Of a stretch of 33,006 nt of DNA, positions 966 to 18,684 are shown in pieces. Positions within the stretch are counted from its first letter, which is position 1. Each line of letters begins with the position of its first letter. Location of the stretch: the NCBI GenBank assembly GCA_944362765.1, contig CALVTP010000018.1, positions 1 to 33,006 on the forward strand. The letters run 5' to 3'. Below the pieces are notes generated by a model. That model saw only the letters and a program-made list of their open reading frames with translations, did no database searches and had not been told where the DNA came from. Source of the stretch: an uncultured Clostridia bacterium (GTDB lineage: Bacteria; Bacillota; Clostridia; Christensenellales; DTU072). Position numbers and translations under genes: made by a program.

Positions 966-995
966 TTGACTTTTTGCGGCTTTCGGGATTAGAAT
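966..995 (+). promoter_or_regulatory. SigA-type promoter of the DUF1846 gene
   Basis: TTGACT (966-971) and TAGAAT (990-995) are separated by 18 bases. The expected start of transcription is near 1002, just ahead of the GGAGG ribosome site at 1011-1015. Confidence 0.6.
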
Positions 996-1021
996 ATTCG
1001 TGGATTTTTCGGAGGCAGAAG

Positions 1022-2488
1022 ATGAAAACGATCGGCTTTGACAACGACTTATATGTAAAAAAGCAAACCGAGAGCATTTTGAAGCGCATAGAATCTTTCG
1101 ATAATAAGCTCTATCTCGAATTCGGCGGCAAGATGTTCGACGATCTGCACGCGGCGAGGGTGCTTCCCGGTTTTGATCCGAATGTCAAAACCAAAATTTT
1201 AAGAAATCTCAAAGATAAGTTGGAAATCATCCTTTGTATCGGTGCTCCGGCAATCGAAAAGAACAAGATCCGTTCCGATTTCGGGCTGACTTACGGCAAC
1301 GAGCTCATCCGTCTCATGCGCAATTTAAGGGGTATGGGACTCAGCGTCAATTCCGTCGTCATCACCCAATACTCCGAGCAGCCCGCCGCCGATATATTCA
1401 GAAAACGCCTCGAAAGAATGGGCGAAAAGGTTTATATCCATAAATTGACCAAAGGATATCCTAACGACGTCGATACCATTGTCTCCGACGAAGGCTACGG
1501 CGCCAATCCGTATATCGAAACGACAAAGCCGTTGGTCGTCGTCAACGCCCCCGGTCCCAACTCCGGAAAACTTGCCACCTGCCTTTCGCAGCTCTATCAC
1601 GAGTACAAGCGCGGCGTCAAGGCGGGCTACGCCAAGTACGAGACCTTCCCGGTATGGAATCTGCCGCTGAAACACCCCGTCAATGTCGCTTATGAGGCTG
1701 CTACCGCCGATATCGGCGACAGGAATATGATCGACTACTTCCACCTCGACGCCTACGGCATAAGCGCCGTCAACTACAACCGCGATCTGGAAGTCTTCCC
1801 GGTCGTCAAAAATATCTTAACCCGCATACTCGGCAAAGAGATCTACAAATCCCCCACCGATATGGGTGTAAACATGGTAGGCTACGCCATCACCGACGAC
1901 GCAGCCGTCCGCGAAGCCACCAAACAGGAGATCATCCGTCGCTACTTCAAGGCGTACAACGACTACAAATTAGGATTGACGGAGCTCGAAACGGCGCACC
2001 GCGTCGAAATCCTGATGAAAGATATGGGCGCTAAACCACGGGACAGACGCGTCGTAGAACCCGCTCTCCAAAAAGCCGAAAAGAGCGGCTGCTCCGCGAT
2101 AGCGCTGGAGCTTCCGAACGGCAAAATATTGACCGGGCGCGACAAAAACAACCTCTACGCCCCCGCTGCCGTCATTATTAACGCCTTAAAAGAGCTCGCC
2201 GGTATCGACGACCGTATAAAACTCATCTCTCCTGCCGCAATCGACGCCGTTTTGAAGGTCAAACACGAGGCGTTGAAGTCCAAAACCAAGATGATGAATC
2301 TCGAAGAAGCGCTGATAGCGCTTTCATTCTCGGCGGCAACCAACCCGACGGTGGAGTTTGCGCTCGGGAAACTACCGGAGCTGAGCGGCTGCGAAGCGCA
2401 TTCGACGGTTATGCTTCCGGAGAGTTCACTCCAAATCTTCCGCAAGCTAAACATTAATCTTACCTGTGAATCCGAATTTTCAATATAA
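1022..2488 (+). CDS. UPF0371/DUF1846 family protein
   Basis: This 488-residue protein matches the length and character of the DUF1846 (UPF0371) family, common in Firmicutes and of no settled biochemical role. The N-terminus (MKTIGFDNDLYVKKQTESI), the LYLEFGGKMFDDLHAARVLPGF stretch, VVVNAPGPNSGKLATCLSQLYHE and the SPTDMGVNMVGYAI segment are typical. The NAPGPNSGKLATCLSQ stretch looks like a nucleotide-binding-type loop, but this is only a resemblance. I chose ATG 1022 because GGAGG lies at 1011-1015, six bases before it; an upstream in-frame start at 974 would lie inside the promoter. The TAA stop lies within the left arm of the inverted-repeat element that follows, so that element's hairpin probably terminates this transcript. 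Confidence 0.88.
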   Translation: MKTIGFDNDLYVKKQTESILKRIESFDNKLYLEFGGKMFDDLHAARVLPGFDPNVKTKILRNLKDKLEIILCIGAPAIEKNKIRSDFGLTYGNELIRLMRNLRGMGLSVNSVVITQYSEQPAADIFRKRLERMGEKVYIHKLTKGYPNDVDTIVSDEGYGANPYIETTKPLVVVNAPGPNSGKLATCLSQLYHEYKRGVKAGYAKYETFPVWNLPLKHPVNVAYEAATADIGDRNMIDYFHLDAYGISAVNYNRDLEVFPVVKNILTRILGKEIYKSPTDMGVNMVGYAITDDAAVREATKQEIIRRYFKAYNDYKLGLTELETAHRVEILMKDMGAKPRDRRVVEPALQKAEKSGCSAIALELPNGKILTGRDKNNLYAPAAVIINALKELAGIDDRIKLISPAAIDAVLKVKHEALKSKTKMMNLEEALIALSFSAATNPTVEFALGKLPELSGCEAHSTVMLPESSLQIFRKLNINLTCESEFSI

Positions 2489-2618
2489 TTTTCTTCCCGC
2501 AGAGTTAAAGAAAGAGAACTTTAATTGTTCGCGAGAACGAAAACTTTATAAAAAAGCTTGTACGCACGTACAGGCTTTTTTCATAAGGTAAGACCTGATG
2601 CGGGAAGAAAATTATATT
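2482..2618 (+). repeat. Inverted-repeat element, copy 1 (with terminator-like core)
   Basis: A perfect 20-bp inverted repeat bounds the element: left arm 2482-2501 (AATATAATTTTCTTCCCGCA), right arm 2599-2618. Inside are an AGTTAAAG...CTTTAATT half-dyad (2503-2526), a GTTC-GCGA-GAAC hairpin (2528-2539), and a longer stem at 2550-2581 flanked by A6 and T6, so it could stop transcription on either strand. The left arm overlaps the stop codon of the DUF1846 gene. It resembles a small non-autonomous mobile element (MITE/REP type) or a structured RNA; no coding capacity is seen. Confidence 0.85.
2550..2581 (+). terminator. Bidirectional intrinsic terminator-like hairpin in repeat copy 1
   Basis: The stem pairs A6-GCTTGTACG with CGTACAGGC-T6 (one G-U wobble). 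The run of T follows the stem on both strands. It lies 62 bases after the DUF1846 stop, with no other terminator in between. Confidence 0.7.
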
Positions 2619-2640
2619 GTACCCGCGGCTAGGGGCGCTC

Positions 2641-2756
2641 TCGGGGGTGCCTTTCCGCGAAGTGTACAGGATTTCAAGGTCTACACCCTACGGGCGCCTC
2701 TAGTCATGTACATCTTTGTACACTCCTGCCGGCGCTTCGCGAAAAATCACCCCCGA
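2641..2756. repeat. Large interrupted palindrome
   Basis: Three nested arm pairs are visible: TCGGGGGTG (2641-2649) with CACCCCCGA (2748-2756), CGCGAAG (2656-2662) with CTTCGCG (2735-2741), and GTGTACA (2662-2668) with TGTACAC (2717-2723). The approximate 115-nt fold is a long rod with a loop of about 48 nt. No run of T follows it, so it is not a standard terminator. It sits between the two conserved ends of the composite repeat. Confidence 0.6.
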
Positions 2757-2808
2757 CACCGGTGCTCCCAGCTGCCACTTGCTCAAACAGCTTTCCATTT
2801 TCACCTTC

Positions 2809-2830
2809 GCCCCAATCCGCTGCGTATCTC
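2809..2830 (+). repeat. Conserved 22-nt box of the composite repeat, forward copy
   Basis: The box contains CCCCAATCCGCTGCGTATC. An identical 22-nt copy lies in opposite orientation at 3220-3241, and a third copy with two mismatches lies at 3737-3758. Similarity between the first two continues on both sides (a TCAAAC block about 20 bases before, TTTACACG after), giving roughly 75 nt of recognisable homology. Confidence 0.8.
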
Positions 2831-2895
2831 GTACTTTACACGCTCGTCTACATCTCGACGGCATTATTATATAGTGAGGGGATAGTCGGTTGTAG

Positions 2896-3018
2896 CCCTT
2901 CCCGCATAGTTAAAGAAAGAGAACTTTAATTGTTCGCGAGAACAGACCCTTATAAAAAAGTTCGCCACCCGTGCGGACTTTTTTCATAAGGTAAGACCTG
3001 ATGCGGGAAGAAAATTAT
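2896..3018 (+). repeat. Inverted-repeat element, copy 2 (left arm eroded)
   Basis: It has the same order of parts as copy 1, with near-identical TTAAAGAAAGAGAACTTTAA and GTTCGCGAGAAC blocks, the TCATAAGGTAAGACCTGATG tract, and an intact right arm (3003-3018). The left arm keeps only CTTCCCGCA. The core stem (2954-2984) has different bases from copy 1 yet remains largely paired, with one bulged base. Confidence 0.85.
2954..2984 (+). terminator. Terminator-like hairpin in repeat copy 2
   Basis: A6 then GTTCGCCAC pairs with GTGCGGAC then T6, with one bulged base. It occupies the same place as the 2550-2581 stem of copy 1. Confidence 0.55.
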
Positions 3019-3124
3019 ACCCGCGTAGAAGGACAGGAGCGAAGCGACTGTTCGTTTTGGAGCCAACCTTATAATACCGAAGAGAAGGAAGAGATATCGT
3101 CTTAGAAAGATAGATTTTGCGGGT
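3019..3124. repeat. Region closed by a short inverted repeat (ACCCGC/GCGGGT)
   Basis: ACCCGC (3019-3024) and GCGGGT (3119-3124) could close a fold of about 106 nt directly after repeat copy 2. Inside is an ACAG...CTGT hairpin around GAGCGAAGCGA. No gene is recognisable. A structured RNA is possible but unproven; the six-base arms may be chance. Confidence 0.25.
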
Positions 3125-3219
3125 GATTAAAATATTCTTAGGTCAATTATGCGGAGCTATAATAAAACAAACTATACGATAAAGTAAAGCGTAACAATGT
3201 TGACTATCGTGTAAACTAT

Positions 3220-3241
3220 GAGATACGCAGCGGATTGGGGC
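3220..3241 (-). repeat. Conserved 22-nt box of the composite repeat, reverse copy
   Basis: This is the exact reverse complement of the box at 2809-2830. On the minus strand it follows, in the same order as in the forward copy, an inverted-repeat element (3459-3588) and a CCGCGGCT-N-GGGG link, so 3190-3590 is a diverged inverted copy of the 2482-2870 unit. Confidence 0.78.
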
Positions 3242-3304
3242 AAGCAAAAGGAATATAAGACGTTTGAACAAGTAGGAGCCTTGTTTGCGTTAGTTTGCGG
3301 CGAA

Positions 3305-3340
3305 GCAACTAGCAGAGGTGATAAAGCCTCCGCTAGTTGC
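3305..3340. repeat. Strong hairpin inside the repeat region
   Basis: GCAACTAGC (3305-3313) and GCTAGTTGC (3332-3340) are perfectly complementary over nine bases, with a further GAGG/CCTC pairing inside, leaving a loop of about nine bases. No run of T follows. It lies in the middle of the reverse composite repeat. Confidence 0.6.
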
Positions 3341-3458
3341 GGTTTCGGGCGAAATTGGCGAAGGGCTGTATCGACATACGCTCCGAGACAACTCCCGAAG
3401 GGAGGAAACTTGTTTCTTTCGTCCGAAAGCGCCGTGAAATATGCCCCAAGCCGCGGAT

Positions 3459-3588
3459 AAAATTTTCTTCCCGTCTCTATCCCTTCCTTATGAGAAAAGC
3501 GTGTACGTGCGTACAAGCTTTTTTATAAGTGTCTGTTTTCGCGAGCTGAAAAGTTTTCTTACTTTAAATCGCGGGAAGAAAATTATAA
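3459..3588 (-). repeat. Inverted-repeat element, copy 3 (reverse orientation, diverged)
   Basis: Read on the minus strand it shows the same arms (CTTCCCGC at 3571-3586 and CGGGAAGAAAATT at 3461-3473), a CGCGA block, and a core hairpin with the GTACG/CGTAC stem at 3495-3524. Internal sequence is more diverged than between copies 1 and 2. Confidence 0.78.
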
Positions 3589-3816
3589 AAAAAGATAATT
3601 TCTGGGGCGATAGAAATTTCTTCGAAGCGGTATTATTGAAATATAGCCGGGTACTATGAGTATATTAAATTTGCTATAATAAACGGTAAAGCAGGCTTCA
3701 CCGTTATGAGCATTTAAACCAATTAAATTTTTTTTCGCCCCAATCCGCTCCGTATCCCGTTCGGTATGCGGGCGGGAAAAAGCGGAAAAAGTGAAATTTT
3801 TTGATGCTTCCGAGGG
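3589..3816. other. Non-coding remainder of the intergenic region
   Basis: AT-rich sequence with a small AACGGT/ACCGTT hairpin (3682-3705) and a degenerate copy of the 22-nt box (3737-3758, two mismatches). The open frames here are short, carry no ribosome site and match no family I know; I see no gene. Confidence 0.5.
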
Positions 3817-3846
3817 GTGACTTAATTACTACGGGTGTGGTATAAT
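3817..3846 (+). promoter_or_regulatory. Extended -10 promoter of the YbaK-type gene
   Basis: TATAAT (3841-3846) is preceded by TGG, forming the extended -10 element. The best -35 is a weak GTGACT at 3817-3822, 18 bases upstream. Transcription would start near 3853, leaving a 5' leader of about 195 nt. Confidence 0.6.
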
Positions 3847-4049
3847 GGAAAAGCAAGGAATCAGTTGAGGGAGGAAGTGCCGAACACGCCGGAAGAATGG
3901 TTTTTAACCCGGAATAAGCATAAATACTCTTTTACGTGATAAGGGGAAGTTATTTTACCGGATTATCGGGAAAGTCAAGTCCGATAAGGGATCAGCGGTA
4001 AGCGCTTAAAAGAAAGCGGACGAAAAATACAACTGTAAGGAGAATTTGT

Positions 4050-4517
4050 ATGGCGCAAAAGACGAATGCCGTCAGGATATTGGAGCAGCAAAAAATAGCC
4101 TTCGAAGTCATAAACTTCGAGGCGACGGAGGCGGTTTCGGGAGTCGAAGCGGCGGCAAGAATGGGGATTGACCGGAAAAACGTCTTCAAGACATTGGTGA
4201 CGGTAGGGAAGTCGGGCGCCCATTATGTATTTGTCGTACCGGTTGCGGAGGAGCTCGACCTCAGGAAGGCGGCGGTCGCGGCAGGGGAGAAGAATATCGC
4301 CATGATACATTCCAAGGAGCTTTTGCCGCTGACGGGCTATATCCACGGCGGCTGCTCGCCGATAGGCATGAAGAAGGCGTTTCCGACTTTCGTCGACGCC
4401 TCCGCGGAGGATTTGGAGTTTATCGTGTTCAGCGGCGGGAGAATCGGGCTCCAGGTCAAAATGCCCCCTTCGGAGTTGATAAAAGCGGCGCGTGCCGCAT
4501 ATAAAGAACTTGTTTAA
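4050..4517 (+). CDS. ybaK: Cys-tRNA(Pro)/aminoacyl-tRNA deacylase, YbaK/EbsC family
   Basis: This 155-residue single-domain protein has the full YbaK fold length. The family hydrolyses mischarged Cys-tRNA(Pro) made by prolyl-tRNA synthetase, acting in trans in the cytoplasm. Seen directly: VFKTLV with the lysine (K47) that positions the substrate, GGCSPIGMKK, and GGRIGLQV near the C-terminus. TAAGGAG (4036-4042) precedes ATG 4050 at a normal distance. It is transcribed alone from an extended -10 promoter with an unusually long leader, and it converges on the RNA methyltransferase gene 38 bases downstream. The substrate assignment follows the family; related ProX/YeaK-type editing domains act on other tRNAs, but the GGCSPIG motif favours YbaK. 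Confidence 0.9.
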   Translation: MAQKTNAVRILEQQKIAFEVINFEATEAVSGVEAAARMGIDRKNVFKTLVTVGKSGAHYVFVVPVAEELDLRKAAVAAGEKNIAMIHSKELLPLTGYIHGGCSPIGMKKAFPTFVDASAEDLEFIVFSGGRIGLQVKMPPSELIKAARAAYKELV

Positions 4518-17739: not shown

Positions 17740-18684
17740 ATGCAACGGATTTGGACAGTGGAAGAGGCGGTAACGGTGTGGCTGGAAAGAACCGACCTGA
17801 AGCTGAGATCGCGTGAGAGGTATTTGAATATCGCCGAAAATCACATCTATCCCAGTCTCGGCTCCCGCCCGATAAACGAAGTCGACAGAGCGGCTTTGGA
17901 GGAATTGATGAGAAAGGAGAGGGAGCACGGCAACCTGAAGCGTCCGGGCGGGCTTTCGGGGAGCAGCCTGAACCTCATGCGCGTAGTGCTGTACGGAGCG
18001 TTGAGGGCGTCGGTGGATTGGGGAATAATCGATGAAAATCCTGCCGAGCAGCTGCCACGCTTCCGCGTTGACACGGGCAGAGCGGCGGCATTTTCGATGC
18101 AGGAACAGCGCGAAATAGAGCATCATCTTGCGTACTGCCGCGATCCGAGGCTGTTCGGCATAAAAATCGGGCTGTATACGGGGCTCAGAATAGGAGAATT
18201 GCTGGCTCTGAGGTGGTCGGACGTCGACTTCGGGCTCGGGGTGATATCGATAAACCGCACCGCTTATATCGCAAAAACTACATTGGGAAGGTGGACGGCG
18301 GTCAACGACAAGCCGAAGACGGCGGCTTCGGCAAGGTGCATCCCGCTCCCGACACGGCTGATGAAGGATCTGAAAAAGTACCGGAAGCGGGTAAAAGGGG
18401 AGTATGTCGTCTCCGACGGCAGCGGAAAACAGATGAATATAAGGACTTATCAATATCTTTTCGGGAAATTTTTGATAAAATGCAGGGTGCGGCGGCTGAA
18501 TTTTCACGCGTTGAGACACACCTTCGCGACGCGGGCGCTGGAAGCGGGGGTGGACATCAAAACGCTGAGTGAGCTGCTGGGGCACGAATCCGTGACGACT
18601 ACGCTGAGGATCTACTCCCACACCTTCCTTTCGACCAAGCGGCGGGCGATGGAGATAATAAACAGATTATACGTCGAAGTGTAA
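17740..18684 (+). CDS. Tyrosine recombinase/site-specific integrase
   Basis: This 314-residue protein is a phage-integrase-type tyrosine recombinase. An N-terminal SAM-like core-binding domain (about 5-95) is followed by the catalytic domain with the complete set: Arg150 in [11 protein letters not shown], Lys193 in KPKTAASAR, His256 and Arg259 in [12 protein letters not shown], His282 in [15 protein letters not shown], and nucleophile Tyr292. It is thus probably active. GAGGAGG (17725-17731) precedes ATG 17740, and a TGC-GATAAT extended -10 (17709-17714) may drive it, though no -35 is evident. No excisionase, phage or conjugation gene, tRNA gene or flanking direct repeat is visible, so it may be a remnant, or a domesticated enzyme. 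It is too unlike XerC/XerD in its N-terminus to call Xer. Confidence 0.92.

Follow-up and report, generated by a model that had tools for sequence, protein, structure and literature searches.

Introduction

The RAYT-associated repetitive extragenic palindromic (REP) unit is short, about 20-40 nucleotides (nt). One account describes REP units and bacterial interspersed mosaic elements (BIMEs) as palindromes between genes that number more than 100 per genome and are arranged in composite mosaics of mixed orientation (PMC2817692). In two others, BOX/RUP-type repeats and bacterial miniature inverted-repeat transposable elements (MITEs) are short, non-coding and interspersed, with inverted repeats at their ends (PMC3049150, PMC2229807). 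High-copy palindromic intergenic repeats and mosaics, such as REP/BIME and BOX/RUP, are already known. Here, we describe a repeat family from an uncultured Clostridia bacterium (Christensenellales, DTU072; GenBank assembly GCA_944362765.1), three copies of which lie in positions 1 to 33,006 of contig CALVTP010000018.1, forward strand; this whole 33,006-nt stretch is called the window throughout. Many units of the repeat contain an inverted copy of the last letters of the adjacent gene, which is unusual for a repeat.

Like REP/BIME elements, the repeat is present in more than 100 copies (124 here), builds mosaic arrays and occurs in mixed orientation. Unlike them, it has a unit of about 130 nt with a terminator-like core, it carries the end of the host gene as an inverted, locus-specific copy and is seated on stop codons, and the Y1 transposases of its genome have other ends. 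It resembles BOX/RUP-type repeats and bacterial MITEs in being short, non-coding and interspersed with terminal inverted repeats, and differs from them in lacking a direct target duplication and in carrying a flank copy, hereafter F', that is inverted and internal. Its large palindromes, arrayed near stop codons, recall integron attC sites, whereas the core motifs and an integrase above cut-off are missing. A likeness also exists to a mutational process, since three reports state that template switching in quasipalindromes makes inverted-repeat arms alike (PMC8604942, PMC3820800, PMC7202029). In contrast to the known cases, the pattern seen here is repeated on one dispersed family and the stem is extended into host coding sequence. 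In the open-licence literature covered by our searches, we found no report of units that each carry the host gene's end as an inverted copy specific to the locus.

Results

The genome studied (G000) is a 1.71-Mb draft in 68 contigs and is 92% complete. Within about 206 kb of stretches fetched from it we counted 124 distinct copies, with plus and minus orientations mixed in the arrays; the unit is about 130 nt long, and the large imperfect palindromes are spaced about 400-600 nt apart. These copies comprise 68 outer and 56 internal units, a class that we set according to whether a spacer end is present upstream or not. In outer units the stem often extends past the arms into the unique flank (F), and the partner of this extension, F', sits inside the unit, after the right arm and before a conserved CCGCG, with a length of up to 18 nt. 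The complementary run between flank and F' averaged 5.9 nt in the 51 outer units with unique flanks, against 3.2 nt for swapped loci. Of the 68 outer units, this test left out 8 whose arms or edges were unusual and 9 whose flanks were similar (among the latter C57:4364, with a 13-nt fit beyond the arm, though its gene differs), and its text anchor put some units in the wrong place, C4:4314, C25:5126 and C55:3974 at the least. Runs of at least 6 nt were found in 26 of the 51 units (4.1 expected with swapped flanks) and runs of at least 8 nt in 12 (0.42 expected), and the sum of the runs was reached in none of 20,000 permutations. In many outer units, the predicted outer stem is partly host coding sequence.

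The longest run, of 18 nt, lies behind a guaA-like gene, whose end ACGATAGAGTGGGAGTAA is found inverted within the unit. In another species, an rplQ-like gene carries a 15-nt F' near a contig end (guaA, rplQ and rpsU are what we take such genes to be from their translated ends). Arms that are wholly different and still pair were seen at C17:7739, C17:10927, C1:87821 and C2:5846. As a separate observation, two diverged guaA-like genes at C17:28733 (L057) and C51:1704 (L224) are identical over the final 27 bases ahead of the stop, each with its own unit, and the pair looks as if the gene end had been converted together with the repeat. Elsewhere, the F' of the unit at C26:23821 (L230) fits the flank of C45:129 (L234), both near contig ends, and this fit may come from sequence exchange between the two units or from a misjoin.

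Internal units resemble the outer unit of their own array. An outer partner in the same array is present for 49 of the 56, and the similarity of right arm plus F' is 0.80 to this partner versus 0.62 to others; seven of the 49 are identical to their partner over this part, and none of 5,000 permutations reached the sum. At C44, the F' of both internal units fits the gene flank, whereas that of the outer unit does not. Moreover, units sharing an F' have flanks with longer common ends (5.98 versus 3.27 nt; 0 of 10,000 permutations), as would be expected if units join at short homologies or are guided by F'.

The outer units are seated at stop codons. A qualifying open reading frame (ORF; at least 70 codons, or 60 at an edge, with no start codon required) precedes 46 of the 68 outer units, 20 have none and 2 have too little flank. 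The TAA stop is the unit start in 33 of the 46, counting an 80-codon ORF behind the third window copy that is probably not a gene; the frame enters the unit in 8 and stops earlier in 5. Furthermore, we compared these junctions with 800 kb of a sister genome (G009), which carries the repeat at one place as against more than 100 copies in G000. Near the junction, 18 of the 68 outer ends could be matched; by our reading of the printed ends, 10 have the same end codon, 2 lie within one codon of it, a further 2 fall within the last codons, 1 is about 20 nt beyond the stop and 3 are uninformative. The same end codon is found in G009, without the repeat there, at 10 of the 15 informative junctions. 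Several of the compared G009 genes are then followed by a hairpin that looks terminator-like by eye, and the 400 nt after the G009 stop were unmatched in the fetched G000 locus stretch in all nine comparisons. The clean case is C51, where the same two convergent genes are adjacent as in G009, each carrying a unit, and where the roughly 94 nt of G009 intergenic DNA have no match longer than 12 nt. An inverted repeat of at least 12 nt embracing the stop was found at none of 1,613 ORF ends in the 800 kb of G009 and at 20 of 322 in G000, the G000 stretches having been picked for holding units and the ORFs being mechanical.

The original prediction, made from the window sequence alone, had described three copies of an inverted-repeat element, and this observation is confirmed. 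Copies 1 (2482..2618, plus strand), 2 (2896..3018, plus) and 3 (3459..3588, minus) are present with the stems that it quoted. They form a single array of orientation +,+,-, with copies 1 and 3 at its outer ends. Compared with dinucleotide shuffles, folding of copies 1, 2 and 3 gave z scores of -11.5, -6.9 and -3.6 in the element orientation and -10.3, -4.1 and -4.7 on the opposite strand. The weakest fold is that of copy 3 in the element orientation, with 2 of 200 shuffles equally good. Upstream of copy 1 lies a gene for a DUF1846 protein of 504 amino acids (974..2488, plus strand; Pfam PF08903 and PF20921; end taken from the ORF), whose TAA stop (2486-2488, plus) is the start of the copy 1 arm. 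The perfect outer stem of copy 1 (21 bp, 2481-2501 with 2599-2619) includes the last codon and stop of this gene. Here F, CAATATAA (2481..2488, plus), consists of the last coding bases and the stop, and pairs in a run of 8 with F', TTATATTG (2612..2619, plus), the inverted gene-end copy, which is followed by (TA)CCCGCG. Orthologues of the DUF1846 gene in G009 and G011 stop at the identical codon with no repeat there, and the gene downstream of the window array differs from that in both genomes.

Further along, the core of copy 1 (2546..2587, plus) is a terminator-like hairpin with an A-run before it and a T-run after it, readable both ways. Copy 2 starts with GTAG directly before CCCTTCCCGC and, as the AT-rich half of its left arm is missing, is an internal unit; its core hairpin lies at about 2947-2991. 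Copy 3, the reversed outer unit with which the array ends, has its core hairpin at about 3488-3529. The spacer between copies 1 and 2 (2620..2889, plus) and that between copies 2 and 3 (3020..3457, no strand assigned) contain modules recurring in other arrays, and segment 3197-3241 of the second is an inverted match to 2809-2853 of the first (45 nt, 89%). The spacers appear to be non-coding, as judged by eye from frame-breaking length differences, and a 114-amino-acid ORF at 3172-3516, the sole spacer ORF searched, had no Pfam match. At 3589-3640 of the window stands a module (about GATAATTTCTGGGGCGATAGAAATTTCTTCGAAGCGG) that comes after the reversed outer unit in many arrays; it is also found at the right-hand ends at C2:7248, C17:6005, C24:22647, C30:18060, C60:4269, C11:119, C29:1075 and C1:88835, and is perhaps part of the mosaic or the leader of the next gene.

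Of the two outcomes named with the original prediction as refuting it, a lack of further copies in the genome and core stems varying without preserved pairing, neither was seen, and the copies belong to a multi-copy family. The exact arm pattern TTCTTCCCG-N85-115-CGGGAAGAA has 44 matches in the genome, as against none for the pattern read backwards. A covariance model built from 74 copies gave 134 genome rows at E up to 0.01, which include some single places on both strands and come from 150 scored candidates out of 1,059. Among 13 genomes of the genus, G000 included, three others had matches (11, 5 and 2 rows) and nine had no match to the repeat model; a search of 27 further genomes of the family, in each of which 84 candidates were scored, gave none with E up to 1e-4. 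Among the genomes searched, the repeat family was seen in one genus only. Among the pattern matches listed across genome contigs, 104 stretches were compared with the repeat profile, and of these L159 and L163 alone match it well and two more match it at E 0.3-0.4. Two related species (G001:C131, C84 and C126; G010:C33 and C11; L193, L197, L203, L181 and L188) carry a further subfamily that is more distant, is built in a similar way and has the arms ATATTTTCCTGCCCGA/TCGGGCAGGAAAATAT.

Regarding the stems, an alignment of 74 copies (72 distinct) has 24 predicted pairs, whose cells are paired in 96.2% of cases versus 92.3% in shuffles that take no account of kinship among copies. Changes on both sides affected 13 pairs (5.4 in shuffles) and 90 cells (17.9), and for all five pairing measures none of 500 shuffles was as high; the structure used for these counts was obtained with RNAalifold from the same alignment, and a control with slid versions favours that structure by construction. 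These data support the view that pairing has been kept through changes on both sides, as the original prediction held for the core stems, although the number of independent events cannot be read from such a test. Because the variants of the core belong to a few discrete types, much of the covariation is shared ancestry or subtype exchange rather than independent compensation.

By sequence and folding, the core is a G+C-rich hairpin followed by a T-run, and its form matches the two-way intrinsic terminator that had been suggested. A transcript ending in the core T-run would be without the right arm, so the outer stem would act only in DNA or in read-through RNA. In some units (C30:16468 and the C58/C24 arrays), the core is followed by a stretch AAGGAGG...ATTGATG that resembles a ribosome-binding site with a start codon and is missing from other units. 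A search of window positions 2300-4100 against Rfam returned 12 matches up to E 5, all far under the gathering scores, in agreement with the earlier statement that no named family with these arms is known.

The proposal that the element is a MITE stands in one respect, namely the presence of terminal inverted repeats. However, no direct target-site duplication was found in the 14 arrays for which both ends were available: the shared run averaged 1.14 nt, versus 1.04 nt for mismatched ends, and reached 4 nt in 1 of 14. The flank copy, where present, is inverted and inside the element. On these two grounds a classical MITE is not supported. Nor did we find a transposase with matching ends in a search that covered Y1 (IS200-type) genes and not DDE transposases, as the Y1 genes carry a different terminal hairpin, IS200-like by eye. 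As to a RAYT-type Y1 transposase flanked by the repeats, which would be expected of a REP/BIME system, G000 has two Y1 loci, a broken gene about 650 nt from a unit and an intact one with no unit within 1.5 kb. The broken Y1 copy at C7:7728-8068 (L206) lies before a unit, and at G009:C1 (L211) an IS200-like end abuts the spacer of the single G009 unit. A group IIC intron was also considered and rejected, because the reverse transcriptase expected of it gave no RVT_1 match in the 92% complete genome. Integron attC sites have the core sites RYYYAAC ... GTTRRRY. Such motifs were present on both sides in none of the 124 copies and on the right side (GTTRRRY) in one. The best integron-integrase match reached 43.9 bits, against a cut-off of 265, and all 14 control genomes reach a like level. 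A tyrosine recombinase gene (Phage_integrase) at 17740-18684 of the window is the sole genome match to the integron-integrase model, far under its cut-off.

Discussion

The anatomy of the repeat can be read directly from its sequence, and from it we infer a mechanism, to which we give a probability of roughly 0.4: a terminator-like repeat spreads by recombination and caps genes, and fold-back synthesis copies the flank into its stem. When the unit is single-stranded, its right arm would snap back onto the left arm, and the 3' end would be extended by copying the flank, giving F', before returning to its own template, in a template switch of the quasipalindrome type. The same synthesis could make both arms change together. 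Short homologies around the stop codon would let units spread through recombination or template switching, taking the place of native terminators, and the units may be tolerated because they leave the gene whole and their core can terminate transcription. Fold-back synthesis is the simplest process that would write an inverted flank copy beyond the hairpin, and spread to new genes needs a second process besides it. A more specific version, in which a transposase-free, self-templating 3'-end cap replaces host terminators and writes the inverted last codons of each host gene into itself as a pairing arm that records or directs its spread, is on balance doubtful.

Several points speak against fold-back copying. 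The copying event itself was not observed. The flank-F' run is shorter than 6 nt in 25 of the 51 outer units, 3 nt of it (TAA/TTA) are inherent in the motif, and copy 3 of the window has no flank match beyond its arms. One F' can be common to several loci with a partial flank match, which fold-back copying alone does not predict, and similar T-rich right-hand flanks make part of the excess in common flank ends. The nine comparisons with native G009 DNA are weak where the junction is near a contig end, as in several cases. Moreover, template switching alone explains neither the exact seating on stop codons nor the intact CCGCG after F'.

Another explanation is a non-autonomous mobile element whose undetected enzyme targets gene ends, with F' acting as a target guide or made during insertion. 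Exact seating on the stop codon speaks for it, as does the contrast between more than 100 copies in one genome and one place in G009, and units that share an F' do lie at longer common flank ends, such as C35:13383 and C5:47506 at TAAGTAC. However, the 14 arrays have no direct target duplication, the native DNA at C51 was replaced rather than interrupted, and a guide choosing its targets by chance cannot account for runs of 13-18 nt; the differing ends of the Y1 transposases and the lack of an RVT_1 match in the genome add to this, and we regard a mobile element as rather unlikely. Ordinary selection for hairpin structure in RNA or DNA, with arms and F' fitted by selected compensatory point mutations, would account for the pairing kept through both-side changes (90 cells versus 17.9). 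Whole-block replacement of arms and fits of up to 18 nt to unrelated gene ends are, in contrast, not stepwise, and a transcript terminated at the core would presumably be without the right arm, so that point-mutation selection is disfavoured and in our judgement improbable.

The frequent position of units at contig ends, together with the fit between C26:23821 and C45:129, raises the question of whether flank copies come from inverted chimeras of the assembly. This seems very improbable in view of the many cases well inside contigs (for example C3:16346, C2:5846 and C14:15745), of host genes that are whole at the junction, and of the 15-nt case in an independently assembled species, though this one is near a contig end. 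Finally, large imperfect palindromes near stop codons at a spacing of about 400-600 nt are what integron-like cassette arrays with attC-type sites would present. Given the near absence of attC motifs, an integrase score at the level of the control genomes and the lack of a Pfam match in the one spacer ORF examined, this explanation is close to refuted.

If F' was copied from the flank, this family would document fold-back DNA synthesis in nature, through dozens of templated stretches within a single genome that look independent of one another, and the repeat would take over the ends of genes and leave the genes themselves whole. If F' instead guides insertion, it would represent a new way of target choice.

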